From Chryseolinea sp. H1M3-3 (GTDB lineage: Bacteria; Bacteroidota; Bacteroidia; Cytophagales; Cyclobacteriaceae), in contig NZ_JARKMY010000015.1 of the NCBI RefSeq assembly GCF_029360725.1, positions 106,012 through 170,011 of the forward strand: a stretch of DNA of 64,000 nt, in the 5' to 3' direction. The notes beneath the pieces are model-generated. The model was not told the DNA's origin. It made no database searches and worked only from the letters and a program-made list of their open reading frames with translations. The translations under genes were made by a program, and so were the position numbers. Shown here one piece after another: positions 2,924 through 13,602 of this stretch. How positions within the stretch are numbered: the first letter of the stretch is position 1; the number at the start of each line of letters is the position of its first letter.

Positions 2924-4039
2924 TTATGCTTTTTCATAAGCGATTTTATCATCAGGCTCTACCTCTTCCTTTGTGCGGGCCCGCCACCACAGCGCGAGGG
3001 TTGACCCGCTGCTATTCATGATAGGAGAAAATATTGCCGGAGCAAGTCCTACGGTTGAAAGCTTACCCATAGCCAGTGCCAGTGCTGACCCCAGGCCTGC
3101 ATTTTGTAACCCCACTTCAAGTGCCACGGTCCGGCAATCCTTTTCCGGCATATTTAATGCTTTGCTAGCCCAAAAACCTAGTGTGTATCCCGTAACGTTA
3201 TGAATCAAACACGCTAATATCAAGAGGGGTCCAACGACGAGTAAATCATTTCTTCCCGCCGAAGTAATCACAACAATAATCAATCCTATTCCCGCCATAG
3301 AAATCACCGGCATTATGTCATCGAGGAATTTAAATTTCCCATGAAGAAAATGATTAAATATTAACCCCCCGCCTACTGGTACAATGATAATTTTTGTAAT
3401 ATCTACTACCATATCCCAAAAGTTTATAGCCACATACTGACCTGCCAGTAACTCCATTAATAGCGGCGTCATAAGGGGCGCAAGCAGCGTAGCCAAGGCT
3501 GTCAGCGTTACAGACAAAGCAACGTTCGCACGGGCCAGATAAGACATGACGTTTGAAGCTAAGCCACTTGGGCAACTGCCAATGAGAATAATACCAGCTG
3601 CAATTTCAGGAGGAAAAGAAAAAATCTTTGTAATGGCCCAGCCTGTCAATGGCATGATTGAATATTGGGCAACAACTCCGATAATTACGCCCTTAGGCAT
3701 TTGCATCACTCGGCCGAAGTCTTTCAGTGATAACGTAGTGCCCATACCAAACATGATAATTTGCATGAGCGGGATAATAAGTTTTGAAAGCTTAAAATCT
3801 CCGACTTGAATAAAATACTGCGGAAAGTACATGGCGGCTGCCACTGCCGCAAAAATCATAATCGTAAATGCGTACCCTTTCAGCAGTTCGAAGCCACGAA
3901 AAAACATCGCCAGGGAGGCAAAAAACAACACCAAAAACCATCCAGCGTACGCGTGCAGATCTTGAACGGTCAACACCAGAAATGTTAAAAAGAAAATAAT
4001 AGAAAAAATAAGTGCGAACTTCGTGGTTGTTTTTTGCAT
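2924..4039 (-). CDS. Bile acid:sodium symporter (BASS) family transporter
   Basis: This 371-residue inner-membrane protein has about ten hydrophobic segments. Family marks include GMGTTLSLKDF near residue 100, the GSCPSGLASNVMSYLARANVALSV block near 155-178 that forms the BASS substrate/sodium crossover, and EVGLQNAGLGSALA near the end. Known BASS members move pyruvate, other 2-keto acids, pantoate or bile acids with sodium. The gene follows the exported dehydratase and RraA-like genes on the same strand but is separated from them by a strong terminator hairpin, so it may have its own promoter. Transporter family is secure; keto-acid uptake is inferred from neighbours. Confidence 0.85.
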   Translation of the reverse strand: MQKTTTKFALIFSIIFFLTFLVLTVQDLHAYAGWFLVLFFASLAMFFRGFELLKGYAFTIMIFAAVAAAMYFPQYFIQVGDFKLSKLIIPLMQIIMFGMGTTLSLKDFGRVMQMPKGVIIGVVAQYSIMPLTGWAITKIFSFPPEIAAGIILIGSCPSGLASNVMSYLARANVALSVTLTALATLLAPLMTPLLMELLAGQYVAINFWDMVVDITKIIIVPVGGGLIFNHFLHGKFKFLDDIMPVISMAGIGLIIVVITSAGRNDLLVVGPLLILACLIHNVTGYTLGFWASKALNMPEKDCRTVALEVGLQNAGLGSALALAMGKLSTVGLAPAIFSPIMNSSGSTLALWWRARTKEEVEPDDKIAYEKA

Positions 4040-4142: not shown

Positions 4143-5612
4143 TTAACTCCACAGTCTATCCCACGACCGATCTTTATCCCACTCTGGTGAAGGAGCGAAA
4201 TATGATGAGTTCTCAGGATCAAGATGTTTCTTGACAACTTCCTCATTCAACTCAATGCCGAGTCCGGGTGAATCTGGAACGATTGCAAATCCCTTCTCAA
4301 CCATCGGTTTTTGGGTTTTGACAAGGTTCATCCAATAATCTACATCGACGGAGTGATGCTCTAACGCCATAAAGTTATGTGTTGCTGCAGCACAATGAAC
4401 ATTTGCCATAAACGAAACGGGGGTTCCAGCAAAATGCATGGCCATAGCGACACCTTTTTCCTCCGCATAGTCACCAATCTTCTTTGTTTCCAGTAGCCCA
4501 CCCGATGAGGCAAGGTCAGGATGCACAATATCGACAGCCCTGGCGTCTATCAATTTTATAAATTCCTCTTTTAAAAATATATCCTCTCCGGTTGTAGTCG
4601 GAGTTTCAATGGCATCAGAAATAGTTTTCCATTGCTCGGTAAATTTCCAAGGAATCATATCTTCCAGCCAAGCCAACCTATATTTCTCAACAGCTTTTCC
4701 TAGTCGTATCGCATTGTTGTGGTCAAAATGTCCGTAGTGATCGGAAGCTAGTGGAATATCGTATCCCATTTTCTCACGAACCAGTGCTACACGATTTGCC
4801 AGAATCTCAAGACCTTTATCAGTAAGTTGTATCTGCGTTAATTGATGCTCTGTGCTTCCATAAGTCATTGGCTCATTAGTCCATTGCCTTCCTATGTCCC
4901 AGAAATTGCTATTGGAAGCAGTGTCCTTAACACCCTTTAACAACTCTATACCGAAATCCATTTTCATAAACGTGAAGCCTTGTTCATTCAATCTTTTTTG
5001 AACTCTCGCTACGAACTCTGCTTCATTGTCTCCTTGCGGAGTATCGGCATAAAGACGAACTCTATCCCTGTACTTTCCTCCTAAAAGCTGGTATGCAGGA
5101 ACATTGTAGGCTTTCCCCGCAAGATCCCACAAGGCCATTTCAACTGCACACACGCCACCTGCCTGCCGACCATGAAAACCAAATTGCTTGATGCGGCGAA
5201 AAATCATTTCAACGCTACAAGGATTCATGCCTAAAATACGGCTCTTCAAGAACATGGCATATCGGTATGACGCTCCATCACGCACCTCTCCCAAACCGTA
5301 TATTCCCTGGTTGGTGTCGATACGGATGACCGGGCATCTTGCGTGGCCGTTCATAACCACGGCATAACGCATGTCAGTGATCTTAAGGTCGGAAGGAGCT
5401 GAATTACGATTTACTTTCGACGTTGACTGAGCCAAGGTGTCTTCAAGAGAGCTGAACATAAAACCTCCAAGCATCATCCCTCCCATCGCAGATTTTTTAA
5501 GGAAGCTGCGGCGTGGGTTTTCTTTTTCAATTTTCTCTATTGGAGACTCAGGTTGCGGCTCGGGTTCTTTCGCTCCGAATTTCTCCAGAAGTTTTTGTGA
5601 TGGTGTTTTCAT
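4143..5612 (-). CDS. Tat-exported enolase-superfamily sugar-acid dehydratase (mandelate racemase/muconate lactonizing enzyme type)
   Basis: The 489-residue product has the enolase-superfamily fold. Metal ligands are readable as D291 (in ASDHYGH), E317 (in LEDMIP) and E343 (in TGEDIF), with candidate acid/base residues K217-x-D219, D366 and H393. The sequence resembles the RspA/mannonate or gluconate dehydratase side of the family, which removes water from acid sugars to give 2-keto-3-deoxy acids. A twin-arginine leader, PRRSFLKK at 33-40 followed by a glycine-rich hydrophobic stretch to about 61, predicts export in folded form. The 30-residue pre-leader is unusually long. The gene lies 29 bp after the RraA-like gene, so they are co-transcribed. 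The exact substrate cannot be read. Confidence 0.85.
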   Translation of the reverse strand: MKTPSQKLLEKFGAKEPEPQPESPIEKIEKENPRRSFLKKSAMGGMMLGGFMFSSLEDTLAQSTSKVNRNSAPSDLKITDMRYAVVMNGHARCPVIRIDTNQGIYGLGEVRDGASYRYAMFLKSRILGMNPCSVEMIFRRIKQFGFHGRQAGGVCAVEMALWDLAGKAYNVPAYQLLGGKYRDRVRLYADTPQGDNEAEFVARVQKRLNEQGFTFMKMDFGIELLKGVKDTASNSNFWDIGRQWTNEPMTYGSTEHQLTQIQLTDKGLEILANRVALVREKMGYDIPLASDHYGHFDHNNAIRLGKAVEKYRLAWLEDMIPWKFTEQWKTISDAIETPTTTGEDIFLKEEFIKLIDARAVDIVHPDLASSGGLLETKKIGDYAEEKGVAMAMHFAGTPVSFMANVHCAAATHNFMALEHHSVDVDYWMNLVKTQKPMVEKGFAIVPDSPGLGIELNEEVVKKHLDPENSSYFAPSPEWDKDRSWDRLWS

Positions 5613-5641
5613 AAGCGTTGTTTAGTCAATAATAAAGTCAT

Positions 5642-6568
5642 CTACCACGTTCTTTTTTTCATATACTCATCAAGTTCCTGACGAGACATAGGTAATTTTC
5701 CAGGATTTTGATCCAGCCAACTTAAAAAATCTTTTTTTATAGCATCCGTCCATTGTTGATCGATTTCGCCTGGCGTATACTTTCCCTCGCGCAAGCGTTG
5801 ATGCCCGAACTGGTCGCGAAGGGCTATAAATTCTGCGTTGATAACAAGGTCTGCCACAAGATGCGCAGGAATAAAAACTATCCCACCTTTCTTTGCCAGT
5901 ACGGCATCCCCCGGAAGAACAGTAGCCCTACCGATGCGAATGGGAACGTTTATGCCACCAAGCATCATCTCTTGTATATAGGATGGATCGTATCCTTTTA
6001 TCCATGCATTGAAACCTTCGATTTTCTCCAATCCTTCAGCATCACGTACCGAGCCATAAAATATCACACCATTTTTGGAATTGGTATAAATGGCATTACC
6101 CAAATTGTCGCCGATCAGTGTACCATCCACGATCTTACCATAACCATCAGCCACATAAACATCACCGGGTTTTAACATGTCAATAGGCCACGAGTTAAAA
6201 TTTCCCTTACGGCCTTCTTCCTTGCCTTTCGCACGAACGATATTATCATAATCGGTACGCTTAGGCAGATATTGAACGGTCAATGCACGACCAACTAACA
6301 CCTGGTCTTGTTTCAAAACCATCCAATCTCCCTCAAACTGATTGTTGTATCCAGCGTTTCTTAATATGCCCCACGCCTCTTCCAAAGAAATATTTTTTAA
6401 TCTCGCTAGAAGTTTATCAGAGACATTAGGACGACCATCAGGAAGTCTTTCGCCCTTCCATTCCGGTGTAAGTGAAATAATTTGGTCCTTCGTTAGTGTT
6501 ACGTGCTGCGCCTGCAAACTTAAACCCGAGGCTGTCAGTAAAAATGCAAGAAAAAAAATTCGCTTCAT
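5642..6568 (-). CDS. Secreted RraA-family protein, probable HMG/CHA-aldolase-like lyase
   Basis: I start the gene at the ATG at 6566-6568 (308 residues), because MKRIFFLAFLLTASGLSLQA is a clean Sec signal peptide; the upstream in-frame ATG at 6616 would bury it. The RraA fold spans about 40-250. It carries the complete D-x20-R-D motif, D154 in IGDNLG and R175-D176 in GSVRDAEGL, that divalent-metal HMG/CHA aldolases of this superfamily need for aldol cleavage or oxaloacetate decarboxylation. It is therefore more likely an enzyme than an RNase E inhibitor, which would make no sense outside the cytoplasm. About 60 extra C-terminal residues follow the core. It is co-transcribed with the Tat-exported dehydratase downstream. 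Confidence 0.82.
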   Translation of the reverse strand: MKRIFFLAFLLTASGLSLQAQHVTLTKDQIISLTPEWKGERLPDGRPNVSDKLLARLKNISLEEAWGILRNAGYNNQFEGDWMVLKQDQVLVGRALTVQYLPKRTDYDNIVRAKGKEEGRKGNFNSWPIDMLKPGDVYVADGYGKIVDGTLIGDNLGNAIYTNSKNGVIFYGSVRDAEGLEKIEGFNAWIKGYDPSYIQEMMLGGINVPIRIGRATVLPGDAVLAKKGGIVFIPAHLVADLVINAEFIALRDQFGHQRLREGKYTPGEIDQQWTDAIKKDFLSWLDQNPGKLPMSRQELDEYMKKRTW

Positions 6569-6707: not shown

Positions 6708-8273
6708 CTATTCATTGTCCCACCACACTCGCGTGTCAAGCTTGTCGCCACCCATTCTGTCGATGGCTACATTGACATTAGCTGAGTTTACCGAAATCTC
6801 AGATGTTGGATATGTTAGTCTGTAGATATTGGTGACCTCTTTTCCAGGATATGGATTTGGAGCTAACGCGGGGAAACCACTTCGTCTGTAATTCGCAAAA
6901 GCTTCCGGTCCATTTAAGAAAGAAGCTATCCAATATTGTGTATTGATTTGCTCCAGATAGTTAGCTGCATCATACGGATTTGCACTCACATATGTATTAA
7001 TATCTGCAGGAGGTACGGCAGAACCTGCATCGAATGCTGCTAACTGTTCCATATGGGCACGAATACCGGCTTCAAAATGCTCAGCAGCAGTTTGGCCTGT
7101 ACTAATCCAGCCTCTTTCAGTTGCTTCTGCGAGTAACAGATGAGTTTGGGCGGCCGACACAAGATACATGGGAGCGGTTAGCTTTGCCATGCGTTTACGG
7201 TCTACTTGGCTAAAATCATAGAAGCTAGCAAGCCCTAATCCCGTAGCAACAGCACCAATCGTACTGTTATCGTGGCCCATAGGCATACCGATTTGATCAG
7301 CAGGTGCTTTTGTTAATGTTACAGTAGCTGGAGGATTGCCATTGGCAGTGTTAGCTTGCTCAGGGCCACTTTTTGCGCCTTTGTAACGAACCGCGATAGA
7401 AGTTAACCTGGGGTCATTAGTATTCTTTAAATGATCAACGAATGGTGCCGTCAGATAAAAATTTGCACCTTCCGTACCATTCAACGTTACGCCTAGGGCA
7501 TTTTGATAATTATTATCATGTCTGACAACAGCGTTATCAGCATTCGTCAAAATCAACTCAGCACCTTCTACGCTTGCAACTGTTTGTGCTGCTAAAGTTG
7601 GATCCACAGTGCTTAACCTCATGCCAGCACGAAGTATAAGAGAATTAGCGAATTTTGTCCACTTCGCAACGTCTCCCCCATACAATACATCCGCGGTTTC
7701 AATTTTACCTGAAGCACTAAGTCCAGCAACTGCAGATTTCAAATCCTGAATGATTGCTGGATAAATATCCTCTTGAGCGTCATACTGAGGGAGTGTAATA
7801 CCCTCGAGGTACCCTTTGCCCGCCTCAAAATAAGGTATATCGCCATATGCGTCAGTTAAAACCATAAGCGCATAGGTCTGAAGGATTCGTGCCATTTGGT
7901 ACAAATTACTTCTGGTGGCATCGTCTTGCGTAGCGTGAATCACATCAGCCGTATACCGGATCACATTCCGATAATACCCTTGCCATAGGCTTTGCGTTGC
8001 CTGGCGGTTGTCCTGATTGTAGTTTGCACCCGTAAGAACTCCAGAGTTTGGAGAAATGATGTGCTGCACAACGCCGACATCGTAAATTAGTGAACTACCA
8101 CCACCAGCGCCACCGCTGCTGGATACGTTAACAATACCATTGTTAAGTATATATACGGGATCAATTTCAGCAGCTCCCGTTTTACTCGTGTTGAGTTCAT
8201 CGAATCCGTTCTCGCACGAAGCGATCACCAGAAGCAAACTCACTAACAGACTATAGTTTAATAGCTTTTTCAT
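6708..8273 (-). CDS. SusD/RagB-like nutrient-binding outer-membrane lipoprotein
   Basis: This is a surface lipoprotein that caps a SusC channel and binds the substrate. I start at the ATG at 8271-8273 (521 residues), five codons inside the longest frame, because MKKLLNYSLLVSLLLVIASC is a classic lipoprotein signal with the lipidated cysteine at 20. The N-terminal ENGFDELNTSKTGAAEIDP segment, TPR-like helices (residues 90-220) and the closing ANVAIDRMGGDKLDTRVWWD match the SusD-like_2 branch, which often partners channels for peptides or small ligands as well as glycans. It follows the SusC gene after only 15 bp. The ligand cannot be read. Confidence 0.93.
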   Translation of the reverse strand: MKKLLNYSLLVSLLLVIASCENGFDELNTSKTGAAEIDPVYILNNGIVNVSSSGGAGGGSSLIYDVGVVQHIISPNSGVLTGANYNQDNRQATQSLWQGYYRNVIRYTADVIHATQDDATRSNLYQMARILQTYALMVLTDAYGDIPYFEAGKGYLEGITLPQYDAQEDIYPAIIQDLKSAVAGLSASGKIETADVLYGGDVAKWTKFANSLILRAGMRLSTVDPTLAAQTVASVEGAELILTNADNAVVRHDNNYQNALGVTLNGTEGANFYLTAPFVDHLKNTNDPRLTSIAVRYKGAKSGPEQANTANGNPPATVTLTKAPADQIGMPMGHDNSTIGAVATGLGLASFYDFSQVDRKRMAKLTAPMYLVSAAQTHLLLAEATERGWISTGQTAAEHFEAGIRAHMEQLAAFDAGSAVPPADINTYVSANPYDAANYLEQINTQYWIASFLNGPEAFANYRRSGFPALAPNPYPGKEVTNIYRLTYPTSEISVNSANVNVAIDRMGGDKLDTRVWWDNE

Positions 8274-8288
8274 AGTTATGCTACCCAA

Positions 8289-11200
8289 TTAGAATTTAAC
8301 ATTTAAGTTGAAGCCCATATTCCTTGTGGTGGGAAGTCCAGTGGATTCCATACCAATAAGATTGTCGGAACTGTAGCCGAAAGACTCTGGATCGATATTT
8401 GGAATCCATTTTTTCAACATCAGTACGTTATTTGCGACGAGGCTAAGTCTTACACCTTTTACAGGGAAATTTTCCGGCAAGAATTTAGTGAAGTCATATC
8501 CAAGCGTGATTTGACGAAGCTTCCAATAGCCACCGTTGTAAATTACCGGTTCGATAAGTCCTTTTGACCTAACAACTTCGTAGAACGGTTGTACAGGGAA
8601 TACAGCTACAGTGTTTGGTTCACCAGCTTCGTTTACACCTTGTCCTACAACACCTGATTCTCTTCCTGCTAACGTTTCTTTATGCAATCCATGGCGGTAG
8701 GCATTAAAGTTTGTTCCAGAAAGCATTTTGTTTCCTAATTTAAAATCAATCAAGAAAGAAAAGCTGATGCCTTTATAAGTCAAGGAGTTTGTAAACCCTC
8801 CAACCCACTTAGGTAACGCACTTCCAAAGTTTAAGAAAGTTGATGTTGCTAAAGGAATTCCATTGGCACCATAGATAATCTGACCATTGTTCCGTTGATA
8901 TCCGAATCCGGCGATTTGTCCTAATTCCTCGCCCACGATATGCCTGAGTTCGCCATTAAATACGTGCGTGCCAACAGTGATACGCTCACCCGGGGTATCT
9001 GTAGTGATCTTAAGTACTTTTGTAATATTATAGGATCCATTGAATGTAAAATCCCACACAAAATCACTGGTTTCTATAGGAACAATGTTTAACATCAGCT
9101 CCACTCCCCGATTTCTACTTTCACCGCTGTTAATGCGAGTATCTACATACCCTGAAGCATCAGAAACCTGAGCCTGAACAATCTGATCTGTAGTAATTTT
9201 CTGGTAAGCTGCTACATCTATGTTTAACCGATTCTTTAACATCTTCAATTCAAGACCGACTTCAGTTTCAGTAACAGTCATTGGCCTTAAACTCCGATTA
9301 GGAAGGGTAGTTGACGTTGGTCCGCCCAACGGTTGAGGCGCTCCTGAAGGATTCGCCAGGAAATTGTTGTTAATTCCATAATAAAGAAGTGTAGAATAAG
9401 GCGCAACATCGGAGTTGCTTCCCACTTCAGCGTAAGCCACGCGGAGTTTACCAAAATTCAGGAAACCGGATGTATTCTCTAGGAAGACATATCCCAATGA
9501 AATGGATGGATAAAATGTACTTCTGTTGCCTTTGGATAATACAGAGAACCAATCATTCCGCCCTGTTGCACTTAGGAAAAGAAAGTCTTTATAAGAAACT
9601 TCGGCAGATCCGTAAAGTGAATTTACCTTCTCCTCACCCAGTGTGTACAACGGATCCTTTACACGTCCATTTTGAACAGTATATAGATCGCGCACTACGA
9701 AATCGGTAACCTGGACGCTATTCAGTTCGGAACGGCGATACATTTGGTTACCGCCTACATTCACACTTAAAGCGAAATCGCCGAATGATTTATTTGACCC
9801 AATAAGCCAATCGGCATTTAGCTCACGGAAATTACGCGCGTCTTGTGTATACATACCATTTACAAATCCCGCAGGAGCTGCTGCTCGCGATGCCTGGCCA
9901 GTTGGGAAATTGTTGTAATCCTCAGTCCGTGACCAATAATCTTGACCAATACGACCTTGCACATATAACCAATCCGTGAGATCGTATCTAAGTGAAATGT
10001 TGCCAAAAACTCTGTCACGTCTTGTGTTATGGAATTGCTCCGCTAATGTGAAATATGGATTTGTTCGATTCATAAATCTGGAGTACACAAATTCATTGCC
10101 CTGCGCATTGTATTTCTTTTCATTCAACAACCATAATGGCATGGAGTTAGCCATTGCATACAATGCCACCGGTATCGTGTTATCCTGGTTTCCTACGTTA
10201 GGAGCATTTTTGTTATATTCATTTGAATAATTAATGCTTCCTTTTACGCTGAGTTTTTCTGACAATGAATAGTTGAAGCCAAGGTTAATGCTTCTTCTCG
10301 TGAATGAGTTGTTAGGCACAATCCCTTTGCTGTCCATATTCGCCAATGACAAATTGAAACCGCCTTTTTCTCCTCCTGAAGACATGCTTAAAGTATTCGT
10401 CATCGTCTGGCCGTTTCTGAAGAAGTCCTTGATATGATTTCTCTGAGGCTCATATGGAACAGTGACGCCATCAAAAAGAACTTGTGTCATTCCAGGTTGA
10501 AATTTTTCCCCAAAAGACCATTGTCCTGATGTTGGATTAGGATTTGTTGGGCGAACGCCATTTTCACCTTGACCGTATTCGTATTGGTAATCAGTAAAAT
10601 CTAAAGGCTGATCGTTGGTGTAATTTAAGTTATAGGTCAACCCGAGACCACGTCCATCTCCCTTTGTCTTTGTAGTGATCATAATAACACCGTCTTTCGC
10701 ACGGTAACCATATAATGCAGCAGCTGTAGCACCTTTTAAAACTGTCATGCTTTCAACATCATCAGGATTTATACTTTGCAAACCATCTCCACCATCCGAA
10801 GTAACACCACCACCTCTTGTAGCAATTGCATTGTCTCCTCCAACCGAACCAGATGAGGTAGGGTTTGTTCCGAAATTTGTATTATCTATAGGTACACCAT
10901 TGACAACGATAAGCGGGTTATTTTGGCCAGTAAAAGAAGACTGACCCCTAATACGAATCTTAGATGTTCCACCAGGACCTGTTCCAAGACCAGAAATGTT
11001 AACTCCAGCAATTTTTCCCTGGAGCGAGTTCATGATGTTGGGAGTGCGATTAATCGTAAGCTGGTCAGCGTTCACAGTGCTTGTTGCGTAACCCAGACTT
11101 TTACTCGACTTTTCAATACCCAACGCAGTCACAACAACTTCTTCGAGTGACTTTACATCAGGATCAAGTCTCAGGTCTATGGTGGTTCTTGAACCTACCG

Positions 11201-11840
11201 TAATTTCTTGCGTAGCGTATCCTATAAAAGAGAATACAAGTACAGCGTTTTCATCTGGCACTTCTACGGAATATCTACCATTAATATCCGTAGATGTTCC
11301 TACAGAGGTACCCTTTACCAACACGTTTACCCCCGGAAAATCTGCACCGTTTTCGTCGGTCACTTTTCCGGAAATTGTAATGGCGACTTCATTTTTTTGC
11401 TGACGTGTTGCGAGGCGTTCCGCCAGATAATCACCAGTGGAAGCCGAAGGGAAACTGAAAAGCAACGGCGTCGTTGAAATAGAAGCCGTAGGTTCAGCAG
11501 CGATAGGTTTCCTTACGCTTTTCTTTTGGTAGATAACATAAAATCTGTCCCCACCTTTTTCATAATAGAGCGTAGTTTGCCTTAACATCATGTCTAAGGC
11601 CTCTTCTGCACTTTTAAAAGAACTTTTGGACGGCTGAATTAATTTGTTCTCCACCCATTCATCTTTGTAAGCAATGGATACATTGAACGATTTTTCAACT
11701 TCCTTTAGCCCTTGCTTTAGGGAGTAGGATTCCAAACGGACCGCCCTGGGCGATGCTGCGGCATACACCTCATCGTGCTGCGGCAGCGCTTCGTAAGATA
11801 TCAGCAGGAATATGCCGATTAGTAAGTACTGACATTTCAT
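8289..11840 (-). CDS. SusC/RagA-type TonB-linked outer-membrane channel with STN signalling domain
   Basis: The 1183-residue product is a TonB-dependent importer. In order: signal peptide 1-20; STN (secretin/TonB short N-terminal) domain about 38-105; carboxypeptidase-regulatory-like domain 155-226 (ISGKVTDENGADFPGVNV, then NGRYSV); SLEEVVVTALG at 231-241 marking the plug entrance; plug with GKIAGVNISG and SKIRIRGQSSF; then a 22-strand-type barrel ending in a terminal phenylalanine. The STN domain is the part that contacts FecR-type anti-sigma factors, and fecR lies immediately upstream. This is a cell-surface-signalling transducer that both imports its ligand and induces its own operon. Confidence 0.95.
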   Translation of the reverse strand: MKCQYLLIGIFLLISYEALPQHDEVYAAASPRAVRLESYSLKQGLKEVEKSFNVSIAYKDEWVENKLIQPSKSSFKSAEEALDMMLRQTTLYYEKGGDRFYVIYQKKSVRKPIAAEPTASISTTPLLFSFPSASTGDYLAERLATRQQKNEVAITISGKVTDENGADFPGVNVLVKGTSVGTSTDINGRYSVEVPDENAVLVFSFIGYATQEITVGSRTTIDLRLDPDVKSLEEVVVTALGIEKSSKSLGYATSTVNADQLTINRTPNIMNSLQGKIAGVNISGLGTGPGGTSKIRIRGQSSFTGQNNPLIVVNGVPIDNTNFGTNPTSSGSVGGDNAIATRGGGVTSDGGDGLQSINPDDVESMTVLKGATAAALYGYRAKDGVIMITTKTKGDGRGLGLTYNLNYTNDQPLDFTDYQYEYGQGENGVRPTNPNPTSGQWSFGEKFQPGMTQVLFDGVTVPYEPQRNHIKDFFRNGQTMTNTLSMSSGGEKGGFNLSLANMDSKGIVPNNSFTRRSINLGFNYSLSEKLSVKGSINYSNEYNKNAPNVGNQDNTIPVALYAMANSMPLWLLNEKKYNAQGNEFVYSRFMNRTNPYFTLAEQFHNTRRDRVFGNISLRYDLTDWLYVQGRIGQDYWSRTEDYNNFPTGQASRAAAPAGFVNGMYTQDARNFRELNADWLIGSNKSFGDFALSVNVGGNQMYRRSELNSVQVTDFVVRDLYTVQNGRVKDPLYTLGEEKVNSLYGSAEVSYKDFLFLSATGRNDWFSVLSKGNRSTFYPSISLGYVFLENTSGFLNFGKLRVAYAEVGSNSDVAPYSTLLYYGINNNFLANPSGAPQPLGGPTSTTLPNRSLRPMTVTETEVGLELKMLKNRLNIDVAAYQKITTDQIVQAQVSDASGYVDTRINSGESRNRGVELMLNIVPIETSDFVWDFTFNGSYNITKVLKITTDTPGERITVGTHVFNGELRHIVGEELGQIAGFGYQRNNGQIIYGANGIPLATSTFLNFGSALPKWVGGFTNSLTYKGISFSFLIDFKLGNKMLSGTNFNAYRHGLHKETLAGRESGVVGQGVNEAGEPNTVAVFPVQPFYEVVRSKGLIEPVIYNGGYWKLRQITLGYDFTKFLPENFPVKGVRLSLVANNVLMLKKWIPNIDPESFGYSSDNLIGMESTGLPTTRNMGFNLNVKF

Positions 11841-11888: not shown

Positions 11889-12884
11889 TTACTCTTTTAG
11901 ATATATCCGATTTTCCTCTTTGATCACTTTCAGTTGGAATGCTTTGGCAATCTGCTGCAACAAACTCTCGGCATCTGTTACAGGCATGGAGCCTGATATG
12001 GTTTGTTCCAGAAGGCTTTCCTTTACGTCCACTTCAATACCATAATTGTTCTTAATCATATGAAGCATTTCTCGTAAACTCGTTCTGTTCAGAATCAGAT
12101 TGTGCTCCGTCCAAGCTGTATAAAGTTTAGGATCTACCTTTCTTTTTACATACTTTTTCTCATTGTATTCCACCAATTCTCCCGGGCTCATCAATATTTT
12201 TTCGTCTTCCTGCACAGTTGGCAGACTGAGTTGAATTTGTCCTGAATTCAACATGATTTTAGTTTCATCTCTATGATAAACATTAAAGGTTGTTCCAAGC
12301 ACTTCTATATTTACATCCTCACTTGTTTTTACTAAAAAGGGTTGATTGTTCTTCTTGTGTACCACTGAAAAGAATGCCTCACCATCCAGCCAAACCTCAC
12401 GTACGGCAGACGCTTCCCATTGCGAATGCAATTTCAGGAGGGAGTTAGAATTAAGCATAACGGTTGAGCTATCGGGTAATGTAATGGATTTCGTTTCGCC
12501 AAATGCCGTTCTATATTCTACCATTGTTGGCGTTCGTGGCCAAAAAAAAGAACTAATGCCGATGAGTAATGCTGCCGCAGCAACAGAACTATACCAGAGG
12601 ATCAGCCTCGACTTACTTAGCCGTGGCTTGTCAACAGATTGTAAGTCAGTGTTCCGAATTTGATTCCAAACCGCTGATACCTCATTTGCAGGAAGATCAT
12701 AGTTATAAAAATTTAGTCGAAGAAGGGTCGAGCGCGCTTCTTCCACATCGCCTCGCCTTTCAGGGTTTTCTTCAAGCCAAGTGTGCCAGAAAGACTCCGT
12801 GTTTTCATCCATGGCAAAAACCCATGATTGAAAATGCTCATCCATTATAAAATCTTTAACCGAAAATTGGCTGTAATCTTTCAC
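11889..12884 (-). CDS. FecR-family anti-sigma factor
   Basis: The 331-residue single-pass inner-membrane protein relays substrate occupancy from SusC to the sigma factor. Residues 1-92 are the cytoplasmic sigma-binding part, 93-115 the membrane helix (ILWYSSVAAAALLIGI), 123-215 the FecR domain (AFGETKSITLPDSSTVMLN; WLDGEAFFSV) and 262-329 a C-terminal DUF4974 module that meets the STN domain. The start codon is GTG at 12882-12884; this keeps the usual family N-terminus (YSQFSVKDFIMDEHFQSW), which the first internal ATG would cut. It lies 48 bp ahead of susC and 85 bp after the sigma gene. Confidence 0.93.
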   Translation of the reverse strand: MKDYSQFSVKDFIMDEHFQSWVFAMDENTESFWHTWLEENPERRGDVEEARSTLLRLNFYNYDLPANEVSAVWNQIRNTDLQSVDKPRLSKSRLILWYSSVAAAALLIGISSFFWPRTPTMVEYRTAFGETKSITLPDSSTVMLNSNSLLKLHSQWEASAVREVWLDGEAFFSVVHKKNNQPFLVKTSEDVNIEVLGTTFNVYHRDETKIMLNSGQIQLSLPTVQEDEKILMSPGELVEYNEKKYVKRKVDPKLYTAWTEHNLILNRTSLREMLHMIKNNYGIEVDVKESLLEQTISGSMPVTDAESLLQQIAKAFQLKVIKEENRIYLKE

Positions 12885-12969: not shown

Positions 12970-13602
12970 TCACAATCCCAGTAAAGAGAACAGGATTAAA
13001 AAAACGGCATCGGCTTTGAGTTTTTTGCGCAAAATATCGATTGCCTTAGAGATTAAATTGTAGACGGAATCTACATGCAAGTCCATTATGGCTGCCACCT
13101 CGTGATAAGAAAGCTGATTAAAGAATTTCAAAAAAATTGCTTCCCTTTGTCGTTTGGTCAATGTATGGAGGCTATTCCTGATTTTTTTATTTCTCTCTAC
13201 CTCCCACTCCTCTTCAATAAGTACATCTTCTTTAGAGGGTGCAAAGTCAAACCCATGTCCATCCCGATCGCTCAACGATATCAAAAATTTTCTGCCTACT
13301 GTTAAGCGATTCATCAGTAGGCGTCTAAAGGATTTGAAAAGATAATAATTGACACACGTTACTTCACTCAATTTTTCTCTTCGGTCCCACAAAAGCGCAA
13401 ACAACTCCTGAATACAATCCAACACCAATTCTTTATTTCTGCATGTATGCATACCATAATTATAGAGCCGATGCACATACTTATTATACAGAACAGAGAA
13501 CGCAAGGTCATTGCCCTTCTTAAAACTTAACCACAGGGTGCTGTCATCCAGTGATTGGTCTTTATAATTTCGGCTATGATTTTTGAGCGGTTTAGCTAGC
13601 AT
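12970..13602 (-). CDS. ECF-type RNA polymerase sigma-70 factor
   Basis: The 210-residue protein contains sigma region 2 (about 25-95, with ALLWDRREKL) and region 4 (about 130-195, LTKRQREAIFLKFFNQLSYHEVAAIM, then an HTH). No region 3 is present, as in ECF factors. The last 12 residues (AVFLILFSLLGL) are strongly hydrophobic, an extra tail seen in some Bacteroidota ECF sigma factors. With FecR and STN-SusC directly downstream it makes a complete sigma/anti-sigma/transducer cascade that should transcribe the SusCD operon. Confidence 0.93.
   Translation of the reverse strand: MLAKPLKNHSRNYKDQSLDDSTLWLSFKKGNDLAFSVLYNKYVHRLYNYGMHTCRNKELVLDCIQELFALLWDRREKLSEVTCVNYYLFKSFRRLLMNRLTVGRKFLISLSDRDGHGFDFAPSKEDVLIEEEWEVERNKKIRNSLHTLTKRQREAIFLKFFNQLSYHEVAAIMDLHVDSVYNLISKAIDILRKKLKADAVFLILFSLLGL

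Follow-up and report, generated by a model that had tools for sequence, protein, structure and literature searches.

The 64,000-nucleotide stretch analysed here (the window; Chryseolinea sp. H1M3-3, contig NZ_JARKMY010000015.1, positions 106,012 to 170,011) carries an operon in which an RraA-family protein and an enolase-superfamily protein, each with an export leader, are encoded side by side, and which on balance probably specifies an extracytoplasmic, kinase-free route for sugar acids. In the proposed route, SusC/SusD would mediate uptake across the outer membrane, and the enolase-type enzyme would convert an aldonic acid in the periplasm to a 2-keto-3-deoxy acid of the 2-keto-3-deoxygluconate (KDG) type. 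RraA, acting as a class II metal aldolase, would then split this acid into pyruvate and an aldehyde (glyceraldehyde if the acid has six carbons), and a transporter of the bile acid:sodium symporter family (BASS) would take up the acid product in a sodium-coupled manner. In sister clusters, exported homologues of UxuA (beside the enolase) or DgaE (replacing it, mostly with RidA) would feed RraA the same intermediate. The exported enolase-RraA pair itself is a real observation, beyond chance.

Pfam and NCBIfam scans give the gene order ECF sigma factor, FecR, SusC, SusD, RraA, enolase and BASS. The RraA and enolase genes lie on the minus strand, separated by 29 bp (5613-5641); open reading frames (ORFs), strands and gap agree with an earlier note made from the sequence of the window. 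The operon contains the SusC/SusD pair by which polysaccharide utilisation loci are recognised, and none of its seven proteins matched a glycoside hydrolase or lyase in the Pfam scan, which suggests a small-molecule cargo. Induction of the operon by its cargo is suggested by the sigma-FecR pair together with an STN-like stretch of SusC (20.6 bits, under the cut-off of 28.4).

Judged by their leaders, both proteins are almost certainly exported. RraA begins with the Sec-type leader MKRIFFLAFLLTASGLSLQA/Q, and the enolase has RR at residues 34-35, then SFLKK and a run of uncharged residues; a TatC gene is present in the Chryseolinea genome, and the enolase has the features of a twin-arginine translocation (Tat) substrate. 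Signal peptides were called by a home-made heuristic script, alongside 73 controls of cytoplasmic type (KdgK, Eda, IlvD, FGGY, AraC, zinc dehydrogenase, DHDPS and sigma families; Fisher test for Sec). Sec-like leaders were found in 155/158 RraA proteins and Tat-like leaders in 143/145 enolases (93/95 of type ENOa, to which the window enolase belongs, and 50/50 of type ENOb), against four Sec-like and no Tat-like calls among the controls. The earlier note had read a Sec signal peptide on RraA and a twin-arginine leader on the enolase, and both prove near universal in homologues. Partner proteins carry leaders as well, Tat-like in 10/11 UxuA, 7/7 DgaE and 5/6 RidA and Sec-like in 10/11 amidohydrolases. 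An earlier scorer had given export-like starts in 113/120 RraA and 117/119 enolases, missing the window enolase because a proline precedes its RR.

The RraA protein exceeds the gathering cut-off of PF03737 (RraA-like; 24.5 bits), a conserved WKGERxxDGRP region precedes the Pfam match, and the nearest solved sequences are 5x15 and 3noj (HMG/CHA aldolase). The full D-x20-R-D motif (D154, R175, D176) seen in the window by the earlier note is kept across relatives, being intact in 118/120 RraA ORFs of a first set and 142/156 of a wider one; with a producer gene within 3 kb the count is 125/131, against 17/25 without. R175 and D176 align with Arg-123 and Asp-124 of HMG/CHA aldolase (a numbering match read from the alignment), of which the former is linked to catalysis and the latter is a metal ligand (PMC5065237, consulted in part). 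RraA is most likely a class II aldolase that would release pyruvate, and cleavage of a KDG-type intermediate by RraA appears fairly probable. Motif losses occur in a block with a PQQ dehydrogenase (Asp to Ala or Ser), in a clade with LIGSSLGN, at L169:9295 (Ala), in L173 (Asn) and in the R-N copies L014 and L109; one further loss, L054, is a truncated ORF. On the tree, a clade of 23 RraA rows holds 21 with an ENOb partner, RraA being partly sorted by partner. A role as RNase E regulator was considered and rejected because of the export signal and the low model score (NF006875, 44.1 bits; cut-off 136). In the separate clade mentioned above (L112, L113, L114, L124:8731-9663 and L169:8215-9153) LIGSSLGN replaces LIGDNLGN, and three of the five members lack a producer gene closer than 3 kb. 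An RraA of the window type also occurs at L076:7748-10927, in a bin labelled Acidobacteria, and is nested among Bacteroidota in the tree, a placement that reflects transfer or misbinning.

The enolase passes the Pfam cut-offs for MR_MLE_C (29.4 bits) and MR_MLE_N (22 bits) and matches PDB 2qq6 (E 1.7e-54); it has the domains and the D/E/E ligands of the mandelate racemase subgroup. The ligands D291, E317 and E343, which the earlier note had picked out, are present in the alignments and conserved: among pair-type enolases D291 and E317 are kept in 119/119 and E343 in 118/118 that have a residue there, and the metal triad is retained throughout both subtypes. ENOa reads D-H-Y/F-G-H, with H292 and H295 each in 74/76, and ENOb mostly D-M-H-G-R; the position two residues past the Asp (D+2) is Y or F in 73/76 ENOa and H in 42/43 ENOb. 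For this residue analysis the subtypes were separated by length, which seems to have placed two or three rows in the wrong group; elsewhere they were separated by best match. D-M-H-G-R is presumably the galactonate dehydratase pattern, and in galactonate dehydratases the His two residues past the first metal Asp is the catalytic acid/base. The best NCBIfam models for the window enolase are galactonate/gluconate dehydratases, under cut-off; on the D-galactonate dehydratase model NF010624 (cut-off 311) it scores 191.9 and the ENOb of locus L013 scores 246.8, neither reaching the threshold. Action of the window enolase as a dehydratase is very likely, and its residues point to ENOa as probably a dehydratase with another acid catalyst or stereochemistry. 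Neighbouring genes of FGGY gluconokinase-like (18 loci), IlvD (9) and KdgK (4) type indicate aldonates in general, so that no single substrate can be named. At L047:10950-15317, three tandem ENOa genes lie behind one RraA and ahead of BASS, perhaps a set for several stereoisomers.

The pair recurs well beyond the window. Among 80 loci from named contigs, which are the best of 566 matches and therefore biased toward close relatives, SusC-SusD-[RraA-ENOb]-RraA-ENOa-BASS is a recurrent order (the double cluster occurs in Chryseolinea serpens, L027), and clustering of neighbours in these and six own-genome loci found BASS at 56 loci, SusD at 41 and SusC at 40. Surveys of 59 related genomes and of 296 genomes across the phylum are less biased; their Fisher tests make no correction for common ancestry or for genome size, and the candidates scored per genome were six or seven in the 296-genome searches and up to 27 in the 59-genome enolase search. 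From the 59 genomes, 54 of 76 RraA rows (E about 3e-93 or better; 22 weaker ones left out) and 58 of 67 enolase rows (E 4e-153 or better; nine left out) were used. The 54 strong RraA matches fall in 23 genomes, and a strong enolase match lies no more than 1.6 kb from 38 of them, so signal-bearing RraA and Tat-type enolase genes do co-occur, as the earlier note had asked of a genome survey. A strong enolase match is present in 21 of the 23 RraA genomes, against none of the 36 others, or one of them (G012) when the enolase threshold is relaxed to 1e-60. Close pairs are on the same strand with the enolase downstream in 104 of 124 cases, with a median gap of 54 bp.

Sixteen RraA genes have no near enolase. 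In L014 and L124 an enolase lies farther off, at 1.7 and 2.3 kb, L110 has an enolase piece at the contig end, and the gene beside RraA in L111 is more distantly enolase-like (101.7 bits). The partner is DgaE in L106, the PQQ block in L015, L105 and L107, and BASS with a Gfo/Idh-like gene of Tat type in L108; seven are without any such partner among the genes listed. Across the phylum, RraA reaches E 1e-80 or better in 18 of the 296 genomes. Outside the Chryseolinea genome there are 26 such matches in 17 genomes, 17 of them directly beside an enolase, three with DgaE, one with the PQQ block and five with none of these, of which one (G107) was viewed without wide flanks and one (L167) is near a contig end. 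The Gfo/Idh oxidoreductase of L108 (10226-11356) follows directly after BASS and RraA, on a stretch with no enolase in the part examined, and scores 181 bits to the D-xylose 1-dehydrogenase model (cut-off 350).

Other genes beside RraA bear on the nature of the intermediate. Exported UxuA homologues lie 28-72 bp from RraA at L056, L097, L101 and L136 (= L158) and 3.2-3.8 kb from it at L104 and L166; both of those scanned pass the cut-off of 191 for the mannonate-dehydratase subfamily PRK03906 (L104 235.4, L158 228.2), and proteins less similar to UxuA, at about 76 bits to the reference, occur at L093, L123 and L144/L159. Leader-bearing DgaE, RraA, BASS and an exported amidohydrolase form clusters without an enolase at L106, L155, L156 and L157, where DgaE would thus replace the enolase; RidA is present in three of them (L106, L155, L157). 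UxuA converts mannonate to KDG, and RidA acts in enamine hydrolysis. In the 296 genomes the DgaE profile (A6) matches seven and the UxuA profile (A7) five, all within the 18 RraA genomes (Fisher 9e-10 and 5e-7). Since both profiles were built from RraA neighbours, with three and two seed genomes within the 296, the tests were repeated without the seed genomes, giving DgaE in 4/15 and UxuA in 3/16 RraA genomes against 0/278 others (Fisher 5e-6 and 1e-4); the UxuA matches in G304 and G274 are partial or broken. On the tree, the three DgaE-labelled RraA require two or more changes of label, with L157 in a further place. DgaE itself converts glucosaminate-6-phosphate to KDG-6-phosphate, which is passed to the aldolase DgaF (PMC9529869, consulted in part). 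The exported UxuA and DgaE homologues by RraA thus indicate a KDG-type acid as common intermediate, which by this analogy is likely; KDG would join UxuA, DgaE and RidA, with RraA in the place of the aldolase. At L097:3977-7327, a 1116-residue ORF begins like BASS (439 bits) yet clusters with PQQ dehydrogenases, and is perhaps a carrier-dehydrogenase fusion.

The BASS protein passes the cut-off of PF01758 (SBF; 24.3 bits) and matches ASBT_NM 3zuy (E 5e-67); it stays under both NCBIfam cut-offs, with 238.5 against 326.3 for TIGR00841 and 238.4 against 400 for the PanS pantoate carrier model. Counting only loci with full flanks and BASS within 5 kb, the gene is near 47/63 loci with RraA and enolase and 4/4 with RraA and DgaE but no enolase, against 0/8 enolase-only loci (covering nine of the 13 enolase-alone matches of the 59-genome survey, from five genomes) and 1/16 RraA-only loci. 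BASS thus tracks RraA plus a producer, which suggests that it serves what RraA makes; that it carries an RraA product stands at about even chances. BASS relatives transport pyruvate, glycolate, 2-keto acids and pantoate (PMC10645422, consulted in part). In the pocket, the Asn corresponding to N265 of ASBT_NM is present in 73/73 and the T112 position is Leu in 49/73, which matches neither of the two published pairs, Asn and Thr for pantoate and Ser and Gln for keto acids in plants. At L119:4434-10146 and L123:4050-10461, ENOa without RraA lies near GntP-type symporters (298.3 and 243.4 bits; cut-off 292.75), which take the place of BASS, and L119 also encodes a protein with distant similarity to D-threonate kinase.

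Several findings weigh against the proposed route. The window RraA is under every NCBIfam equivalog cut-off, those for HMG-CHA aldolase included (TIGR02798, 47.6 against 304.5; NF006731, 50 against 179), and in two RraA copies of the Chryseolinea genome the motif is no longer complete. The window enolase reaches none of the NCBIfam equivalog cut-offs for sugar-acid dehydratases, and Tyr293 replaces the D+2 His of galactonate dehydratases; because this usual catalytic His is absent, no substrate was assigned. Both UxuA homologues scanned fall short of the TIGR00695 uxuA equivalog (199.55; L104 158.4, L158 157.3), and an enolase, ENOa, is present in every listed locus with UxuA and RraA, so UxuA adds to the enolase and does not replace it. 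The DgaE-type proteins of L099 and L155 score 199.1 and 196.7 on TIGR01437 (cut-off 385.3) and 152.4 and 167.4 on NF047797 (cut-off 600), and are thus relatives, not certified family members. BASS is absent from 16/63 loci with RraA and enolase and from one of two with RraA, enolase and DgaE, and its pocket lacks the Ser and Gln described for keto-acid carriers of plants. Genes of the KDPG-aldolase family (PF01081) and KDG-kinase-like genes are each present in 23/23 RraA genomes, the window's included, and in 16/36 others (one of these 16 PF01081 matches is under cut-off), and in some clusters RraA has KdgK (L059, L065, L068, L104) or an aldolase of DHDPS type (L098, L103) at a distance of 1.3-7.2 kb. 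The idea that absence of KdgK and Eda would mark a need for RraA is contradicted by this count. With both in all 23 genomes, RraA is not the sole possible fate of KDG; their presence also fits KDG as an intermediate.

These counts give most room to an alternative in which the exported enolase, UxuA or DgaE makes KDG in the periplasm, BASS imports KDG, and KdgK and Eda split it in the cytoplasm, with RraA acting elsewhere, for example on a side product or on some stereoisomers only. We regard this as unlikely, if worth keeping in view. Besides the general presence of KdgK and Eda and the KdgK genes near RraA at the four loci just named, in L104 the enolase is followed by an MFS transporter similar to galactonate carriers (277.6 bits; cut-off 395) and, farther away, by KdgK and Eda, and the window's own genome has a KdgK/Eda block (L183). 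That block, however, is separate and distant, next to an MFS-like gene, and import of KDG by BASS sits poorly with the absence of BASS from all eight enolase-only loci and with the RraA motif being so largely kept where a producer is near. Quite improbable is a second alternative, that the pair handles another 4-hydroxy-2-oxo or 2-oxo acid, ENOa being no simple aldonate dehydratase and RraA cleaving or decarboxylating another product. RraA relatives do include oxaloacetate decarboxylases, the D+2 residue separates ENOa from ENOb, equivalog cut-offs are missed, and the kinase-like gene near ENOa and the symporter at L119 scores 71.5 bits (cut-off 450); yet ENOa and the canonical-looking ENOb share operons and the same place behind RraA, and exported UxuA homologues adjoin RraA-ENOa. 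That the leaders are non-functional and both proteins cytoplasmic, or that RraA regulates RNase E after all, is scarcely credible: the signals were judged by heuristic alone, but they are conserved across 158 RraA and 145 enolases relative to the controls, and the regulator model score and the SusC/SusD operon context speak against it. Returning to the extracytoplasmic route, the earlier note's proposal of periplasmic dehydration and cleavage has held in part. Export signals, conserved operons and KDG-pointing partners favour it; cleavage by RraA is a prediction, import of KDG being a genuine alternative, and with Tyr293 the enolase departs from galactonate dehydratases.

The non-phosphorylative Entner-Doudoroff pathway combines an aldonate dehydratase with a KDG aldolase of the DHDPS family, and sugar-acid dehydration and aldol cleavage are usually treated as cytoplasmic. 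The route proposed here resembles that pathway in its predicted aldonate dehydration followed by retro-aldol cleavage without a kinase, and differs in its predicted periplasmic site, its RraA-family aldolase and the SusC/SusD genes in the operon. With HMG/CHA aldolase and the RraA family (PF03737) it shares the family and the D-x20-R-D motif, and 3noj is closest among solved sequences annotated as aldolases, whereas the window RraA has a signal peptide, the WKGERxxDGRP region and dehydratase-type partner genes. The Salmonella DgaE-DgaF system has its counterpart in the DgaE homologue with RraA and amidohydrolase at L106 and L155-L157 (PMC9529869, consulted in part); these differ in their export leaders, in RraA taking the aldolase's place and in the RidA of L106, L155 and L157. 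Periplasmic oxidative routes (3'-ketolactose hydrolases, DUF1080) are likewise proposed to place sugar chemistry outside the inner membrane, in Bacteroidetes too; as described in the consulted part of that source, they consist of oxidation and hydrolysis, with no dehydratase-aldolase pair (PMC9007349). The BASS protein resembles known carriers (ASBT_NM, PanS, plant BASS2) in family match and in the Asn/Gly pocket positions, and departs from them in the mostly Leu T112 position. None of the titles and abstract openings listed by searches of open-licence full texts describes exported RraA, a periplasmic KDG route or a SusD-RraA pair. The proposed route would amount to a dehydratase-aldolase pair of Entner-Doudoroff kind relocated to the far side of the inner membrane.

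For Bacteroidota at large, it is an evenly balanced proposal that a modular lower sugar pathway operates outside the inner membrane, in which aldonic, mannonic and glucosaminic acids would be admitted via SusC/SusD, combinable or exchangeable exported producers (ENOa, ENOb, UxuA, DgaE with RidA) would convert each to a 2-keto-3-deoxy acid for cleavage by one exported RraA, and BASS would import the three-carbon acid, with no ATP used for activation. If true, this would place central carbon chemistry in the periplasm without ATP spent on activation, and such a conserved, regulated, exported module would change predictions of carbon flow in Bacteroidota. It would also explain the RraA-, enolase- and bile-acid-symporter-family genes beside SusC/SusD and the exported UxuA, DgaE and RidA homologues, and suggest a function for the RraA group whose representative in the window reaches no function-level NCBIfam model.

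Table 1. Positions in the window of the RraA-enolase pair, its sequence features and the other genes of the operon.
Feature	Position	Strand	Basis
RraA/HMG-CHA-aldolase-family protein, 308 aa from ATG at 6568; predicted exported class II pyruvate aldolase	5642..6568	-	PF03737, 72.3 bits
Sec-type signal peptide of RraA, residues 1-20, likely cut LQA/Q	6509..6568	-	Sequence; heuristic score 2.8
D154-x20-R175-D176 metal and pyruvate-binding motif of RraA	6041..6109	-	Alignments
Tat-type enolase-superfamily (mandelate racemase subgroup) protein, type ENOa; predicted acid-sugar dehydratase	4143..5612	-	PF13378 (MR_MLE_C), 166.7 bits; PF02746 (MR_MLE_N), 40.5 bits
Twin-arginine codons R34-R35 of enolase Tat leader (NPRRSFLKK)	5508..5513	-	Sequence, alignment
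Enolase metal-ligand region D291, E317, E343; D-H-Y-G-H at 291-295 (ENOb: D-x-H-G-R)	4584..4742	-	Alignments
BASS (bile acid:sodium symporter family) transporter; predicted importer of periplasmic product	2924..4039	-	PF01758, 142.2 bits
SusD-like outer-membrane substrate-binding protein (SusD-like_2)	6708..8288	-	PF12771, 278.6 bits
SusC/RagA TonB-linked outer-membrane transporter	8289..11840	-	TIGR04056, 640.8 bits
FecR-type anti-sigma regulator	11889..12884	-	PF04773, 54.3 bits
ECF sigma factor (Sigma70_r4_2)	12970..13602	-	PF08281, 40.7 bits

The Chryseolinea genome contains four RraA genes, all starting with signal-like leaders, and twelve MR_MLE_C matches, eleven of them over cut-off. 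Three of the four RraA genes are near a Tat-type enolase: the window pair, L013 (RraA 8569-9519, ENOb 7225-8511) and L014, where the two genes are divergent and 1.66 kb apart. The fourth, L015, adjoins genes for a PQQ dehydrogenase, a cupin and an SMP-30 protein. The genome also has three leader-bearing DgaE-type genes (L179, L180, L182) and one leader-bearing UxuA-type gene (L181). Behind the RraA-ENOb pair at L013:4663-9519 come genes for a GMC oxidoreductase and a gluconate-2-dehydrogenase subunit 3, possible periplasmic producers of the acid. At L179:1990-10275, sigma, FecR, SusC and SusD genes precede a DgaE-type ammonia-lyase with a leader, with no RraA in the stretch examined, and at L182:6706-10649, amidohydrolase, RidA and DgaE-type genes lie close together, all with leaders, perhaps serving a periplasmic amino-sugar-acid route. 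PQQ dehydrogenase, cupin, RraA and SMP-30 form a conserved block, found at L015:5464-12145, L105, L107 and L174; with its first Asp changed to Ala or Ser, the RraA of this block may bind but not catalyse.

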